A stretch of DNA of 64,000 nucleotides from Pantoea allii (GTDB taxonomy: Bacteria; Pseudomonadota; Gammaproteobacteria; Enterobacterales; Enterobacteriaceae). This document shows, in pieces, positions 2,817-6,940 of the stretch (position 1 is its first letter; every line of letters starts with the position of its first letter). The DNA lies in the NCBI RefSeq assembly GCF_002307475.1, contig NZ_NTMH01000003.1, positions 310,001 through 374,000 on the forward strand. The letters run 5' to 3'. Made by a program: the position numbers and the translations under genes. The notes below the pieces were generated by a model. It was not told the DNA's origin. It searched no databases and was given only the letters and a program-made list of their open reading frames with translations.

Positions 2817-3254
2817 ATGAGTAACGCCACACAGTGCGTAAAACAGCTGGTGCAGGATATGGTTGAAGACAATCAAGCCTATGGCCAGCTTAAAGCCCTG
2901 CTCAGGGAGCAACGTCAGGCGCTGATTGCCCGCGATGTTGCTGAACTGGACCGGCTGAATCCGCAAATTTTTGCGCTTTATGAGCAACTCGCCCACAACA
3001 GCCAGCAGCGTTACCAGTTGCTGACCCAGTTGGGTATTCCTGCAAGCTCCAAAGGCTTGCGCCTGTTGTTCTCCCGCCTGCCTGCCAGGCACCAGGCTCA
3101 ACTTGACCCACTCTGGCAGTCGCTGGAAAGCGTGGCGACAGAATGCCAGGCCCTGAATGACGGTAATGGTCTTGTTGTCAGTATGCAGCAGGACATACTC
3201 CAGAAACTGGTTAACGTAGGTGAACCCGAGAACTGGCTTTATCAGCAGGTTTAA
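2817..3254 (+). CDS. flgN: flagellar export chaperone FlgN
   Basis: FlgN binds the hook-filament junction proteins FlgK and FlgL before export. The 145-residue all-helical protein shows the FlgN pattern: 'MVEDNQAYGQLKALLREQRQALIARDVAELDRLNPQIFALYEQL' followed by 'QRYQLLTQLGIP' and a C-terminal helical part. It starts 2 bp after the flgM stop, so the two are translationally linked. It ends the flgA-M-N run; the modification island follows. Confidence 0.88.
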   Translation: MSNATQCVKQLVQDMVEDNQAYGQLKALLREQRQALIARDVAELDRLNPQIFALYEQLAHNSQQRYQLLTQLGIPASSKGLRLLFSRLPARHQAQLDPLWQSLESVATECQALNDGNGLVVSMQQDILQKLVNVGEPENWLYQQV

Positions 3255-3439: not shown

Positions 3440-4102
3440 ATGCAATTTATTGACTGGGCGACCTTTTCTCAGGTGATCTATATTAATCTGCCGCACCGGC
3501 GCGATCGTAATTTCCGCATGAAACGTCATCTGAGAGAACTGAAGGCACCTAAAGAGAAGGTCTTACGCTTTGACGCTATACAGGCCAGCCCCGGTTCGGT
3601 GGGATGTGTAAAATCACATATTGCGGTACTGGAAATGGCTATCGCCCAGGGTTGGGAAGATGTTCTGATTCTTGAGGATGATTTTGAATTTACCCATGAT
3701 GCCCCCAGCCTGACGCGTCTCAATCTCTGGCTGCAAAGCCTGGGGAATGTCCACTGGGACGTGGCGTTTCTTGCAGCCAACTATCAACATGTTACCCCTT
3801 TGAAAAGTGTCGATTACCTGCTGCGCGTTAATCGGGCATGGTGTGCGTGTGCATATTGGGTTAAACAGCATTATTTTTCGCAACTGCTGGAAAATTTACG
3901 CCAGAGTCTGCGGTTTCTGGAACAGGGTGGCCAGCCACAACGCTATGCTCTGGATGTACACTGGTGGCAGTTAATGGCAAAAGATTGCTGGCTTGGCCTT
4001 TACCCTTGTGCAGGGTTCCAACAGGCTGACAGAAGTGATATTGAGCAACGCCATGTCGATTATCGCCCCCTGTTTTATAAATCACTGGAGGCTATATGTT
4101 AA
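3440..4102 (+). CDS. GT25-family glycosyltransferase, probable flagellar modification
   Basis: The product resembles family 25 (LPS beta-type) glycosyltransferases. It begins 'VIYINLPHRRDRN' (residues 12-24), has the 'GCVKSHIAVLEMA' block (55-67) and the acidic 'VLILEDDFEF' motif (75-84, EDD 79-81). The ATG at 3440 is chosen because the family motif starts close behind it; an in-frame GTG at 3290 would add 50 unrelated residues. No strong ribosome site precedes 3440. At 220 residues it is compact. It sits between flgN and a convergent fliB-like gene inside a flagellar locus, so glycosylation of the secondary flagellin is the natural inference. The sugar donor is unknown. Confidence 0.75.
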   Translation: MQFIDWATFSQVIYINLPHRRDRNFRMKRHLRELKAPKEKVLRFDAIQASPGSVGCVKSHIAVLEMAIAQGWEDVLILEDDFEFTHDAPSLTRLNLWLQSLGNVHWDVAFLAANYQHVTPLKSVDYLLRVNRAWCACAYWVKQHYFSQLLENLRQSLRFLEQGGQPQRYALDVHWWQLMAKDCWLGLYPCAGFQQADRSDIEQRHVDYRPLFYKSLEAIC

Positions 4103-4111
4103 CGCCGTTGC

Positions 4112-5059
4112 TTAAATCAATGACAATCCACACAGCAACATATAATCCGCACTGTCTTCACTGTCAGCCTCTGGGGTTTTATGCTGCTGCCAGCTAAACC
4201 AGGCGCTGGCCAGGATTACCAGATCGCGCGGCATCAACCGGTTATGATCTTCCAGCCACAGCGCGCACAACATTTTTAATTCAAATATCTGGCGAGTGAG
4301 TAACAGAAATGCATGACCATAATGTTGCCCACATCCACAGGGAAAGACCTCACCATAGAGACGATAAATCAACAGATTGCGTAAAATGTGGGGATGTTCG
4401 CTAAAGAATGTGTTGCTGGCAGCAAGGGTTTCCAGCGTTCGTAATCGTTGTTGCAATGCTGAAGGTGACATAACGGCCAGTTCGCTGAGTTTAAGCATCA
4501 TACTCATTTTTTGGGTCGCGGGTAGATTAAGGTTTAAACGAAGCGCCCCCATCTGTGCCAGGGCATCGATGCGATTACTTTCGATTGACGGCAACATCCC
4601 ATGTTGCTGCTCAAGAATGCCGTTATCCGCAAGTTGTGATAGTTGCTCCCCCATCGTGTCCAGCAGTTGCACGTCATGCTGCCCGTTGCTCTGGTGATGC
4701 TGGGCTTTACTAAGCAGCACGCCAATCGCATATAAACTGGTTTCTAAGGCTAATGCCGGGTGCACTGCCAGATTGATGCACTGTTGATTTAAATTTTCAT
4801 CCCATTGCGTCAGTTCGCGACGATCCTGACATGGGGTCTGGGTGGTATGCAGGATAAAGGCCTGAGGATTTAACAGGATTTCCGTTGCGGCAGTTTCGCA
4901 TCCTGCATTGAGGCTTTGCCGTTGCTGATTTTTAAGTTTAATGCTGACTCTCGGCCAGTCATCCTGCTCTGATGCCCGGCAAGAGGGACAACAACAGGGC
5001 GCTGGCATGGCATCGAAGCGAACAACATATTCTGGACGATAGTTTTCAATTAATTCCAT
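4112..5059 (-). CDS. fliB: FliB-like flagellin lysine-N-methylase
   Basis: FliB methylates surface lysines of flagellin. The C-terminal half carries the family-like run 'LRNLLIYRLYGEVFPCG...YGHAFLLLTRQIFELKMLCALW', and the N-terminus 'ENYRPEYVVRFDAM..PCCCPSC' occupies the place of the Cys-rich metal-binding motif. Two features are odd. The protein is 315 residues where Salmonella FliB is about 400, and the Cys cluster (C22, C23, C24, C27) differs from the usual C-x3-CC spacing. GGAG lies upstream of the ATG at 5059. It is the last gene of the fliE-J operon, 35 bp after the glycosyltransferase, and is convergent with the GT25 gene. Assignment is by motif and context. Confidence 0.65.
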   Translation of the reverse strand: MELIENYRPEYVVRFDAMPAPCCCPSCRASEQDDWPRVSIKLKNQQRQSLNAGCETAATEILLNPQAFILHTTQTPCQDRRELTQWDENLNQQCINLAVHPALALETSLYAIGVLLSKAQHHQSNGQHDVQLLDTMGEQLSQLADNGILEQQHGMLPSIESNRIDALAQMGALRLNLNLPATQKMSMMLKLSELAVMSPSALQQRLRTLETLAASNTFFSEHPHILRNLLIYRLYGEVFPCGCGQHYGHAFLLLTRQIFELKMLCALWLEDHNRLMPRDLVILASAWFSWQQHKTPEADSEDSADYMLLCGLSLI

Positions 5060-5094: not shown

Positions 5095-6501
5095 TTAGTG
5101 AGCTTTTTTTCGGAAAAACCAGTGAGTACAGTCGACAACCGCGCCATCAATGGGATCGGTTATTTCAGATAAAAAAGCGAAACCTGGCTGCAGACCAAGC
5201 CAGCAATGGTCCCGCATTTGCTCGGTCCAACAGGCATTCAGTGAACTCCCCTGCTGAATTGCCCGCTGGTAATGGGCAAGAAGCGTTGGGATATAGTTGC
5301 CATTAACGGCATAGGCGCAACCGCAGTCACCATCAGTAATCCGTGACACGCCAGGCAACGCGTTGAGGGGAACAACCCGATGATAGCGGCCACCCAGCAA
5401 GGTGACCTGCCAGTGAATATGCGGCAAACGGACTAACAGATGGTTAAGCGTCTTGAGCGATCGTTCTTTATGGACATAGCGTACCGCCGCGTCCAGCAGC
5501 AGTACGCTTGTCCAGTGGTGATGCAGTGCGTGCGTTAATACCTCACAGTGGTTTGCCAGTTCTGCTGTGCTGGCGTCAGCGGCGCGGCGTTTTGCAAACG
5601 GCACTATCTGCTGCGGATCAACCCCAAGCATGTTCAGTTTCTGCCGCTGCTGCTGCAGTGCTTCAGGCTGCGTGGCGTCATAAAGCACCGCGATTTTGTC
5701 AAAGGTTTGCCAGGCGACCACGGTGCTGAGTGGCGCCTGTCCCAGACGTCGATAGTGATTAAGCAAATTACGGTCGGTCACGAAGTCTTCCAGCGTTAAA
5801 TTCACCGGTTGTGACGACCCCAGCACAAAGTCCTTATCGTAAGTATTGGCGCTGTGAGAGATGCACAGAATGGCCTCTTTGGGGTCAATTTGCTGCACAG
5901 GGGTGGTGAAATTATTCAGAAATGCCTGCTCTTCAGCCAGCGTGGCACTGTCGTTATAGCGATGGTTCCTTAGGTAATTTCGGTGATAACCAAAGGTGCC
6001 GTTCAACGCGTGCCGTTCACCAAAAGAAACGGTGCGGTAGATTTTATCAAGATGGCTGTACCAGATATAAATCGTATCGCAGCCTGAGAAGCGCGCGTTA
6101 TTACGCTGCATCGACGCCACCTGGTGGCTGATTTTGCTGGGGGGATAATAGTCATCATCATCAAAACAGATAATGTATTCACCACGGGCCATATCATTGA
6201 GCATGTTGCGCTTTTTACCCAAATCCAGCCGAACCGGGCTGTGGACATAGCGCACATGTTGACAGGTGTGATCGACCAGCATCGCGATCAGATCTTCATT
6301 ACTTTCAGCAGAATCATCCAGAATAATCAGTTCGCGTTTGAGCGCGGGATAATCCTGATACTGATAGATATACAGAAGATAAGGTAAAAAGGCCCGACGA
6401 TTCCAGGTAGGGCATACCACACTGACAAAGGGTAATTCGCTGTGTCTTTTTTGCTGTCGGCGGTTAATCAGTGACCGCATCAGGGTTGGTGTTTCAGCCA
6501 T
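5095..6501 (-). CDS. two-domain glycosyltransferase (GT2 plus degenerate GT25-like domain)
   Basis: Residues 24-260 form a GT2 glycosyltransferase: 'FVSVVCPTWNRRAFLPYLL' (25-43), 'LIILDDSAES' (58-67) and the metal/nucleotide motif 'ICFDDDDYYPP' (111-121). Residues about 265-468 look like the GT25 protein encoded at 3440-4102: 'HWTSVLLLDAAVRY' (329-342) matches its 'GWEDVLILEDDFEF', 'HIHWQVTLLGGRYHRVVPL' matches 'NVHWDVAFLAANYQHVTPL', and 'DHCWLGLQPGFAF' matches 'KDCWLGLYPCAGF'. The acidic EDD is LDAA here, so the second domain is probably not catalytic. It starts 1 bp after the fliJ stop and is co-transcribed with export genes, which points to flagellin glycosylation. Confidence 0.78.
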   Translation of the reverse strand: MAETPTLMRSLINRRQQKRHSELPFVSVVCPTWNRRAFLPYLLYIYQYQDYPALKRELIILDDSAESNEDLIAMLVDHTCQHVRYVHSPVRLDLGKKRNMLNDMARGEYIICFDDDDYYPPSKISHQVASMQRNNARFSGCDTIYIWYSHLDKIYRTVSFGERHALNGTFGYHRNYLRNHRYNDSATLAEEQAFLNNFTTPVQQIDPKEAILCISHSANTYDKDFVLGSSQPVNLTLEDFVTDRNLLNHYRRLGQAPLSTVVAWQTFDKIAVLYDATQPEALQQQRQKLNMLGVDPQQIVPFAKRRAADASTAELANHCEVLTHALHHHWTSVLLLDAAVRYVHKERSLKTLNHLLVRLPHIHWQVTLLGGRYHRVVPLNALPGVSRITDGDCGCAYAVNGNYIPTLLAHYQRAIQQGSSLNACWTEQMRDHCWLGLQPGFAFLSEITDPIDGAVVDCTHWFFRKKAH

Positions 6502-6502
6502 C

Positions 6503-6940
6503 TTATTTCTGCCGTGATGTCTGTTGTCTCAACCAACTCTGCGTCGACAGCGCATCCGTGGTTTTTTGCTCACGTTGATCCTGGGCCTGTCTGAGCGTTT
6601 TCCTTCGTGCATCCATGACGTGCTCAATGCTCTTTTCCCGTCGAAACTCAGCCAGTAAATGGCGCTGTATTTTTTGCGCTTCGACGTTCGCCAGCGCCTG
6701 CTCCTGCTTTTGCCAGTCGATAACACGTTGCAGATTGCGTTTATACACCGACTGATTGCTCAACATCACCGCGTTTTCCTGGCTGGACTGCACGCTCTGC
6801 TTTAGCCCGGATAAAGCGTGAATGTTGTTTTCCAGGCGCTGGCAAAGTCGCTGCTGGCTGGCAAGTTTACGGGTAAGGTCGTTCACCGCGCGATGGCGCA
6901 GAAGGTGAAGTTGTTCAAGTGTGTGTATCAGTTTGCTCAT
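6503..6940 (-). CDS. fliJ: flagellar export protein FliJ
   Basis: FliJ is the coiled-coil stalk of the flagellar export ATPase. The 145-residue product is almost wholly helical and rich in Gln, Arg and Glu, with 'LRHRAVNDLTRKLASQQRLCQRLENNI' and 'RREKSIEHVMDARRKTLRQAQDQREQK' heptad-like stretches. Sequence identity within this family is low, so position is the main argument: it follows fliI by 6 bp in the order fliH-I-J. Corresponds to lfiJ. Confidence 0.85.
   Translation of the reverse strand: MSKLIHTLEQLHLLRHRAVNDLTRKLASQQRLCQRLENNIHALSGLKQSVQSSQENAVMLSNQSVYKRNLQRVIDWQKQEQALANVEAQKIQRHLLAEFRREKSIEHVMDARRKTLRQAQDQREQKTTDALSTQSWLRQQTSRQK

Follow-up and report, generated by a model that had tools for sequence, protein, structure and literature searches.

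A pseudo-glycosyltransferase domain, of GT25 fold and fused to a GT2 glycosyltransferase, is a real and widely conserved component of the Flag-2 loci that carry the type of fusion here called class I. One such fusion is encoded in the window, that is, the whole stretch of 64,000 nucleotides of Pantoea allii DNA that was analysed, and it would be a two-domain glycosyltransferase of the modification region of the Flag-2 (lateral flagella) locus. Judged from its sequence, it is on balance probable that the GT2 half acts as a flagellin-modifying enzyme and that the class I pseudo-GT25 half serves as a non-catalytic docking or assembly domain.

In the accessible text of PMC6993521, the part of the Flag-2 locus between lfiJ and lfgN is defined as variable region 1 (VR1), and its FliB-like genes are named LafV. 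In the window the LafV gene is placed between the fusion and a stand-alone GT25 gene, and the features to which we refer are the following.

5095..6501, minus strand: GT2::pseudo-GT25 fusion gene, class I, 468 aa (open reading frame and translation).
5752..6438, minus strand: GT2 domain of the fusion, residues 22-250 (Pfam PF00535, 63.1 bits).
5107..5718, minus strand: GT25-fold domain of the fusion, residues 262-465, without catalytic residues (homology and motif comparison).
5485..5493, minus strand: D337-A338-A339 of the fusion, at the position of the EDD metal site (alignment).
5659..5685, minus strand: LYDATQPEA of the fusion, residues 273-281, where INLxxRxDR is expected; the motif is lost.
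5548..5550, minus strand: H318 of the fusion, kept in 36/36 class I rows and in 39/40 others (class II and GT25s not fused to GT2).
4112..5059, minus strand: LafV (FliB-like), 315 aa, codirectional with the adjoining fusion (NCBIfam Lys_methyl_FliB, 67.3 bits).
4979..4996, minus strand: CCCPSC of LafV, residues 22-27, which holds CxCxxC.
3440..4102, plus strand: stand-alone GT25, 220 aa, canonical motifs intact (Pfam PF01755, 29.4 bits).
3674..3682, plus strand: EDD motif E79-D80-D81 of the stand-alone GT25, which an alignment matches to an EDD of human COLGALT1.
6503..6940, minus strand: lfiJ (fliJ), VR1 boundary gene, whose relatives adjoin the fusion in most fetched loci.
2817..3254, plus strand: lfgN (flgN), the second VR1 boundary gene (Pfam FlgN, 84.4 bits).

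The VR1 set reported in the accessible part of the same paper (BMC Genomics 2020), GT2-1 to GT2-10, GT25-1 to GT25-4 and LafV, shares with the window the locus, the gene families and the proposed role in flagellin modification. In contrast, GT2 and GT25 are given there as separate dbCAN families and LafV as a methylase, whereas the window has a GT2-GT25 fusion; in that part of the paper neither such a fusion, nor an inactivated half, nor the loss of the FliB cysteines is described. A literature search returned no paper on inactive (pseudoenzyme) glycosyltransferase domains in flagellin glycosylation. With regard to flagellin, nine Flagellin_N matches above the cut-off were found in the genome of the window. 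They are spread over seven contigs, and contig C57 carries two of them, about 6-11 kb past the left end of the window; some of these matches may be extra flagellin copies, and the weakest is perhaps a hook-associated protein.

The GT2 half of the fusion matches PF00535 and has the acidic residues D62-D63, D114-D117 and E190-E191, which we take to be catalytic and which are invariant in 39 of the 39 rows of the two classes of fusion described below. The C-terminal half gives no match to PF01755 in a Pfam scan at E up to 1. It is homologous to GT25 across the whole domain: residues 4-214 of the stand-alone GT25 align colinearly with residues 262-464 of the fusion (27% identity over 211 aa by BLASTP; 88 bits and E 1e-24 as a single comparison, two further matches of the pair being insignificant), and a profile-profile comparison between 16 GT25s not fused to GT2 and 21 fused domains gave a probability of 100 and an E value of 1.7e-44 over 207 columns. 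The blocks HW-x-V, CAY and CWLG-x-P are common to both proteins, and E79-D80-D81 of the stand-alone enzyme is aligned to D337-A338-A339 of the fusion, which has neither EDD nor INLxxRxDR. When the whole genome was searched with the fusion, the best other match was the stand-alone GT25 (E 1.6e-20), followed by three weak matches (E about 1e-4) that are confined to the GT2 half. The predicted structures of the fusion and of the stand-alone GT25 (mean pLDDT 86.4 and 92.9; 82-98 per ten residues in the GT25-fold domain of the fusion, falling to 69 at its extreme end) have matching topologies, with the main strands and helices in the same order. Up to residue 161 of the stand-alone protein these are offset by 258 residues; past a gap of 8 residues the later elements match with small differences. 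The initial annotation had described a GT2 enzyme fused to a GT25-like domain that resembles the separate GT25 block by block and has lost its acidic motif, and this description is confirmed, with similarity found at both the sequence and the fold level and with DAA in place of EDD.

A search for the fusion in other Flag-2 loci was carried out with peptide patterns from the window's own protein, so that close relatives are favoured among the 26 loci fetched (L006-L031), in which the similarity spans both halves or the greater part of them; a 27th, L032, matches part of the GT2 domain only. Within the family to which the organism belongs, 49 of 392 genomes match the fusion at E up to 1e-20, and by open-frame length these are divided into 24 short fusions (class I, the window genome included), 23 long fusions (class II) and two orphan C-terminal domains. 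Class I, the type found in the window, consists of GT2 and a GT25-like domain in roughly 460-510 aa, counted from the first possible start codon. Class II, which includes E. coli, consists of GT2, GT25 and a TagB-like domain in roughly 810-890 aa; this label was assigned by length (>700 aa) for the motif counts and the pairing table, and by length or a TagB-like match for the motif listing and the LafV cysteine counts. The name TagB-like follows the naming in the accessible text of PMC6993521 and weak Pfam scores, since PF04464 gave 15.8 and 18.8 bits in two class II proteins, under the cut-off of 22.1. In E. coli, the GT2 part of the window was matched at the DNA level in 667 of 5,426 genomes; in the two loci that were opened the GT2 domain of the class II enzyme (823 aa) is 56% identical to that of the window, the GT25 domain is homologous, and the protein adjoins a cytidylyltransferase-like gene. 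Class II proteins (L034:4065-6536, E. coli AHB5, and 21 other distinct domains) could add several units to one glycan. Orphan, diverged GT25-like domains of class I type, with 35-39% identity, are found in two genomes (L101:7573-8379 and L102:7603-8382); no fliJ, flgN or lafV match was detected around them within the 16 kb read, and they are possibly remnants of deleted Flag-2 loci.

The state of the GT25 motifs separates the two classes completely or nearly so. Among distinct sequences, EDD is present in 0/37 class I and 22/22 class II domains. For the final DR of INLxxRxDR the counts are 0/37 and 22/22, and for the SDI motif 0/37 and 20/22; compared with the window, class II has intact EDD and DR motifs and an additional TagB-like domain. 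In the same count EDD is present in 21 of 25 members of the stand-alone group, which takes in fragments and the orphans L101 and L102. The first position of EDD is D in 35 of the 37 class I sequences, and the second and third are variable (DAA, DAS, DAT, DAD, DST and others). Deep-branching members of class I have partial remnants, namely EED (L031), SDD (L059) and DDR (L061), which at the level of sequence fit a stepwise loss from an EDD ancestor. Outside the fusions, a non-fused GT25 of Intestinirhabdus alba (L021:10139-10903) is independently without EDD, having DEG, and without INLxxRxDR.

Residue retention was compared between 36 class I rows (the 37 above without L027, which is cut by a contig end) and 40 rows chosen as intact, 22 of class II and 18 not fused to GT2; the terms stand-alone and non-fused mean not fused to GT2, and 8 of these 18 rows come from the start of longer ORFs (541-645 aa). 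The 40 rows leave out the fragments and orphans L101, L102, L044, L053, L076, L107 and L108 and the degenerate L021. In numbering of the stand-alone GT25, R23, R43 and D200 are retained in none of the 36 class I rows, N16, E79, Q194 and S199 in one each, D80 in 3, D22 in 5, R20 in 6 and D81 in 12. H60, A67, W72, W106, W175, W184 and P189 are present in 36/36, and the CAY block is kept in 33-35 of the 36. On average, 17 conserved polar positions are retained at 28% in class I and 22 others at 76%. Three residues specific to class I are nearly fixed in the fusion numbering: D337 (34/36), V343 (35/36) and H460 (34/36). In the active GT25-type domain of COLGALT1 the metal is bound at an EDD core (PMC13382579, accessible text), and the profile of non-fused GT25s aligns its own EDD with an EDD of COLGALT1 (E 6.4e-8), from which we infer that the two motifs are probably the same residues. 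The conserved residues that class I mostly lacks are those expected near the nucleotide and the metal, and those kept are core ones.

In the reading that we favour, the GT2 half would put a sugar on Flag-2 flagellin or on its glycan, a target suggested by the location of the gene. The ancestor of the GT25-fold half would be an active GT25 domain, by then part of a fusion with GT2. Class I would be one old lineage in which this domain gave up the residues presumed to bind the sugar-nucleotide and the metal while its core residues stayed, and in which it may have been retained for docking, dimerisation or acceptor presentation. Its most likely client would be the codirectional neighbour LafV and/or flagellin, and further sugars, where added, would come from exchangeable cargo genes, e.g. 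the stand-alone GT25 at 3440-4102. We infer the flagellin target, the GT2 activity and the docking role; of the earlier proposal that one copy had been converted to a binding or scaffold domain, the non-catalytic conversion is made probable by the loss of motifs, and the docking function is offered as an interpretation.

An unlikely alternative is that the GT25-like half is a decaying relic, kept merely through its fusion to a useful GT2 after elongation became dispensable. It would agree with the many class I loci that have other cargo glycosyltransferases or TagB-like genes that could replace the domain, with the diverged orphan copies outside flagellar loci in two genomes (L101, L102), and with an evolution of the domain about 2.5 times faster than that of GT2 (mean distance 0.96 vs 0.39). 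However, the frame is open in most class I loci, the exceptions being L028 and L031/L106, where it is split, and L027; the seven core residues are invariant, and the residues specific to class I are nearly fixed. Moreover, in the 28 class I pairs that fall within the dS limits (NG86), omega of the dead domain is well below 1 in every pair, which indicates that the domain is under purifying selection, although less constrained than GT2: its values are 0.07-0.52 vs 0.04-0.27 for GT2 and are the higher of the two in 28/28 pairs. In the 8 class II pairs within the limits, omega of the intact GT25 is 0.09-0.36. The frame of LafV is also split in L010 and L028. Split frames such as these point to an ongoing loss of the module in some species, or else to assembly errors.

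Rather improbable, too, is the view that in class I the domain has remained a glycosyltransferase that works by a different chemistry, for instance without metal or with DAD in place of EDD. GT-A enzymes without DxD exist and provide a precedent, and in class I D is found at the first position in 34/36 rows and at the third, mostly as DAD, in 12/36; residual metal binding by some members is therefore possible. Against this view, INLxxRxDR, R43, Q194 and SDI have been lost as well, positions 2 and 3 vary among relatives, and the accessory domain of LH3 is inactive though it retains DAD (PMC13382579, accessible text).

The origin of the fused domain was examined with a maximum likelihood tree of 63 GT25 domains, from which S_L044, S_L053, S_L076 and I_L027 were left out. 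Class I (36), class II (10) and the non-fused domains (17) each lie on one side of a branch, with supports of 97/83, 99/92 and 100/99, respectively, and with long branches among the deep class I rows. When the two GT25 copies of the window were constrained together the log-likelihood changed by -197 (p-AU 9.6e-39). That the stand-alone GT25 was duplicated inside the island, fused, and now forms a heteromeric pair with its copy is highly improbable, despite the presence of both kinds at the same locus in the window, L006, L018, L019, L021, L023, L026 and L108 (the second GT25 being degenerate in L021 and broken in frame in L108), given that the sister relation is rejected, that intact GT2-GT25 fusions exist, and that most class I genomes searched show no second GT25, as detailed below. 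The duplication within the island proposed by the initial annotation is rejected by the tree and the AU test. A quick tree of the GT2 domain also splits class I from class II (support 97), and therefore both halves were probably inherited together. Because intact fusions exist in class II, the most likely order is that the fusion arose before the inactivation, which would have taken place in one lineage; this is probably the reverse of the earlier sequence of duplication, fusion and conversion. The direction of change, from intact to dead domain, is the parsimonious one. The nearest relatives of the stand-alone GT25 of the window are those of L026 (70%) and L018 (60%), both in VR1. Its relatives occur in 11 of 61 genomes of the genus, the window's included, and in the 11 loci from the other ten genomes no fliJ, flgN or lafV match was found within 1.5 kb. 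From this placement in and outside VR1, the stand-alone GT25 is best seen as exchangeable cargo rather than as a parent of the fused domain.

As for the proposed pair, the profile of the non-fused GT25 family was run on 44 whole genomes with fusions, 22 of them class I (out of 24, leaving out G140, which is cut by the contig, and the window's own). Besides the fused domain, no GT25 match was found at E up to 1e-5 in 16 of these 22; other GT25 matches are present in the remaining 6 (G630, G606, G422, G546, G493 and G447). In addition, the spacing between LafV and flgN is merely 25-64 bases in the class I loci L022/L111, L103 and L112. With these two observations, a GT25-GT25 heteromer is rejected as a general rule, and a pairing of the fused and the stand-alone GT25 is possible where a genome has both, as in the window.

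The fusion and lafV are codirectional neighbours in all 59 rows that have both genes, 38 of class I and 21 of class II, a count in which L107, a class II locus broken into two ORFs, is taken as class II, and L022/L111, L031/L106 and L020/L115 are each the same locus twice. The rows L027, L091, L092, L101 and L102, without both genes, stand outside these 59; in the class II loci L091 and L092 LafV was not found, and the pairing is not universal. The class II enzyme adjoins a LafV in most loci, as the class I fusion does; in contrast, gene order and orientation are opposite, fusion-lafV in the direction of lfiJ in class I and lafV-fusion in the direction of lfgN in class II. LafV may be a real partner of the fusion. 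Partial Mantel correlations between the domain and LafV are 0.51 with linear controls and, with quadratic controls, 0.37-0.46 in class I and 0.10 in class II; the domain and flgN reach 0.47 in the same test, hence this co-variation is not specific and is not used as evidence.

Every LafV scanned scores below the NCBIfam cut-off for FliB (85 bits), with 67.3 bits for the window and 41 bits for E. coli. The similarity of the window LafV to the FliB profile starts at about position 99, and the first residues of LafV align with FliB; on the other hand, LafV lacks about 72 of the residues that separate C27 from C103 in FliB. The CX4CX3CC motif of Salmonella FliB binds a [4Fe-4S] cluster, and methylation is lost in a quadruple alanine mutant of this motif, according to the accessible text of PMC8598068. 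LafV does not have this motif, but CxCxxC in class I and none in class II. As reference we used 12 canonical FliB proteins with at least 4 cysteines in their first 80 residues (the other 8 of 20 candidate ORFs are other proteins), which share 8 conserved cysteine columns, and these were compared with 55 distinct LafV rows, without identical copies and without 7 ORF fragments no longer than 280 aa (L010, L028, L037, L042). CxCxxC is kept in 34/34 class I rows, the window's included, and class I LafV has 3 of the 8 columns plus one cysteine of its own (CxCxxC and a later cysteine), whereas class II LafV has 0 of 8 in 21/21 rows, L107 included. The label of flagellin methylase is therefore doubtful for class II LafV, that of the two E. 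coli loci included.

Structurally, the whole predicted fusion is matched best by human COLGALT1 (GLT25D1; PDB 9evj, 9evk, 8zgc, 9u7h), across both domains and with their order unchanged (Foldseek E 4.6e-17, TM 0.47). VIA alignment gave a Z of 19.5 over 380 residues with an rmsd of 7.3, single GT2 structures reaching nearly the same Z; with such an rmsd over both domains their packing probably differs from that of COLGALT1. The VIA-align list is mostly of single GT2 domains, so that the absence of other GT25 entries from it carries no meaning. According to the accessible text of PMC13382579, the C-terminal GT25-type half of COLGALT1 is catalytically active, the N-terminal half dimerises, and the protein acts in complex with the lysyl hydroxylase LH3. 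The order of a GT2-like and a GT25 fold is thus common to both, and the EDD of the GT25 half is absent from class I: COLGALT1 has an active GT25 half, whereas the class I fusion has an intact-looking GT2 and a dead GT25 half. By analogy, the class I fusion looks like a mirror image of COLGALT1, a likeness of arrangement and not of membership.

What stands out most is that the GT25 half and LafV are in reciprocal states: class I combines a dead GT25 with some LafV cysteines, and class II an intact GT25 with none. This reciprocity falls on the one deep split between the classes and thus represents one evolutionary contrast and no causal proof. It is conceivable, if doubtful, that fusion and LafV form one flagellin-modifying complex whose partners have traded roles between lineages. 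If so, in class I the GT25 half would be a dead dock and LafV, with its shortened cysteine set, may bind a cluster, and in class II the GT25 half would be active and LafV, without cysteines, a dead docking partner; such a complex, with reciprocal pseudoenzymes, would correspond in bacteria to the lysine-glycosylating complex of LH3 and COLGALT1 and would probably have arisen independently. The findings also carry a warning, as LafV, called a flagellin methylase in Flag-2 loci, is without the FliB cluster motif. Finally, the two classes make up a natural series of one two-domain enzyme at one flagellar locus, in which the GT25 half is intact in class II and dead in class I, and therefore the function of a pseudo-glycosyltransferase domain is directly testable.
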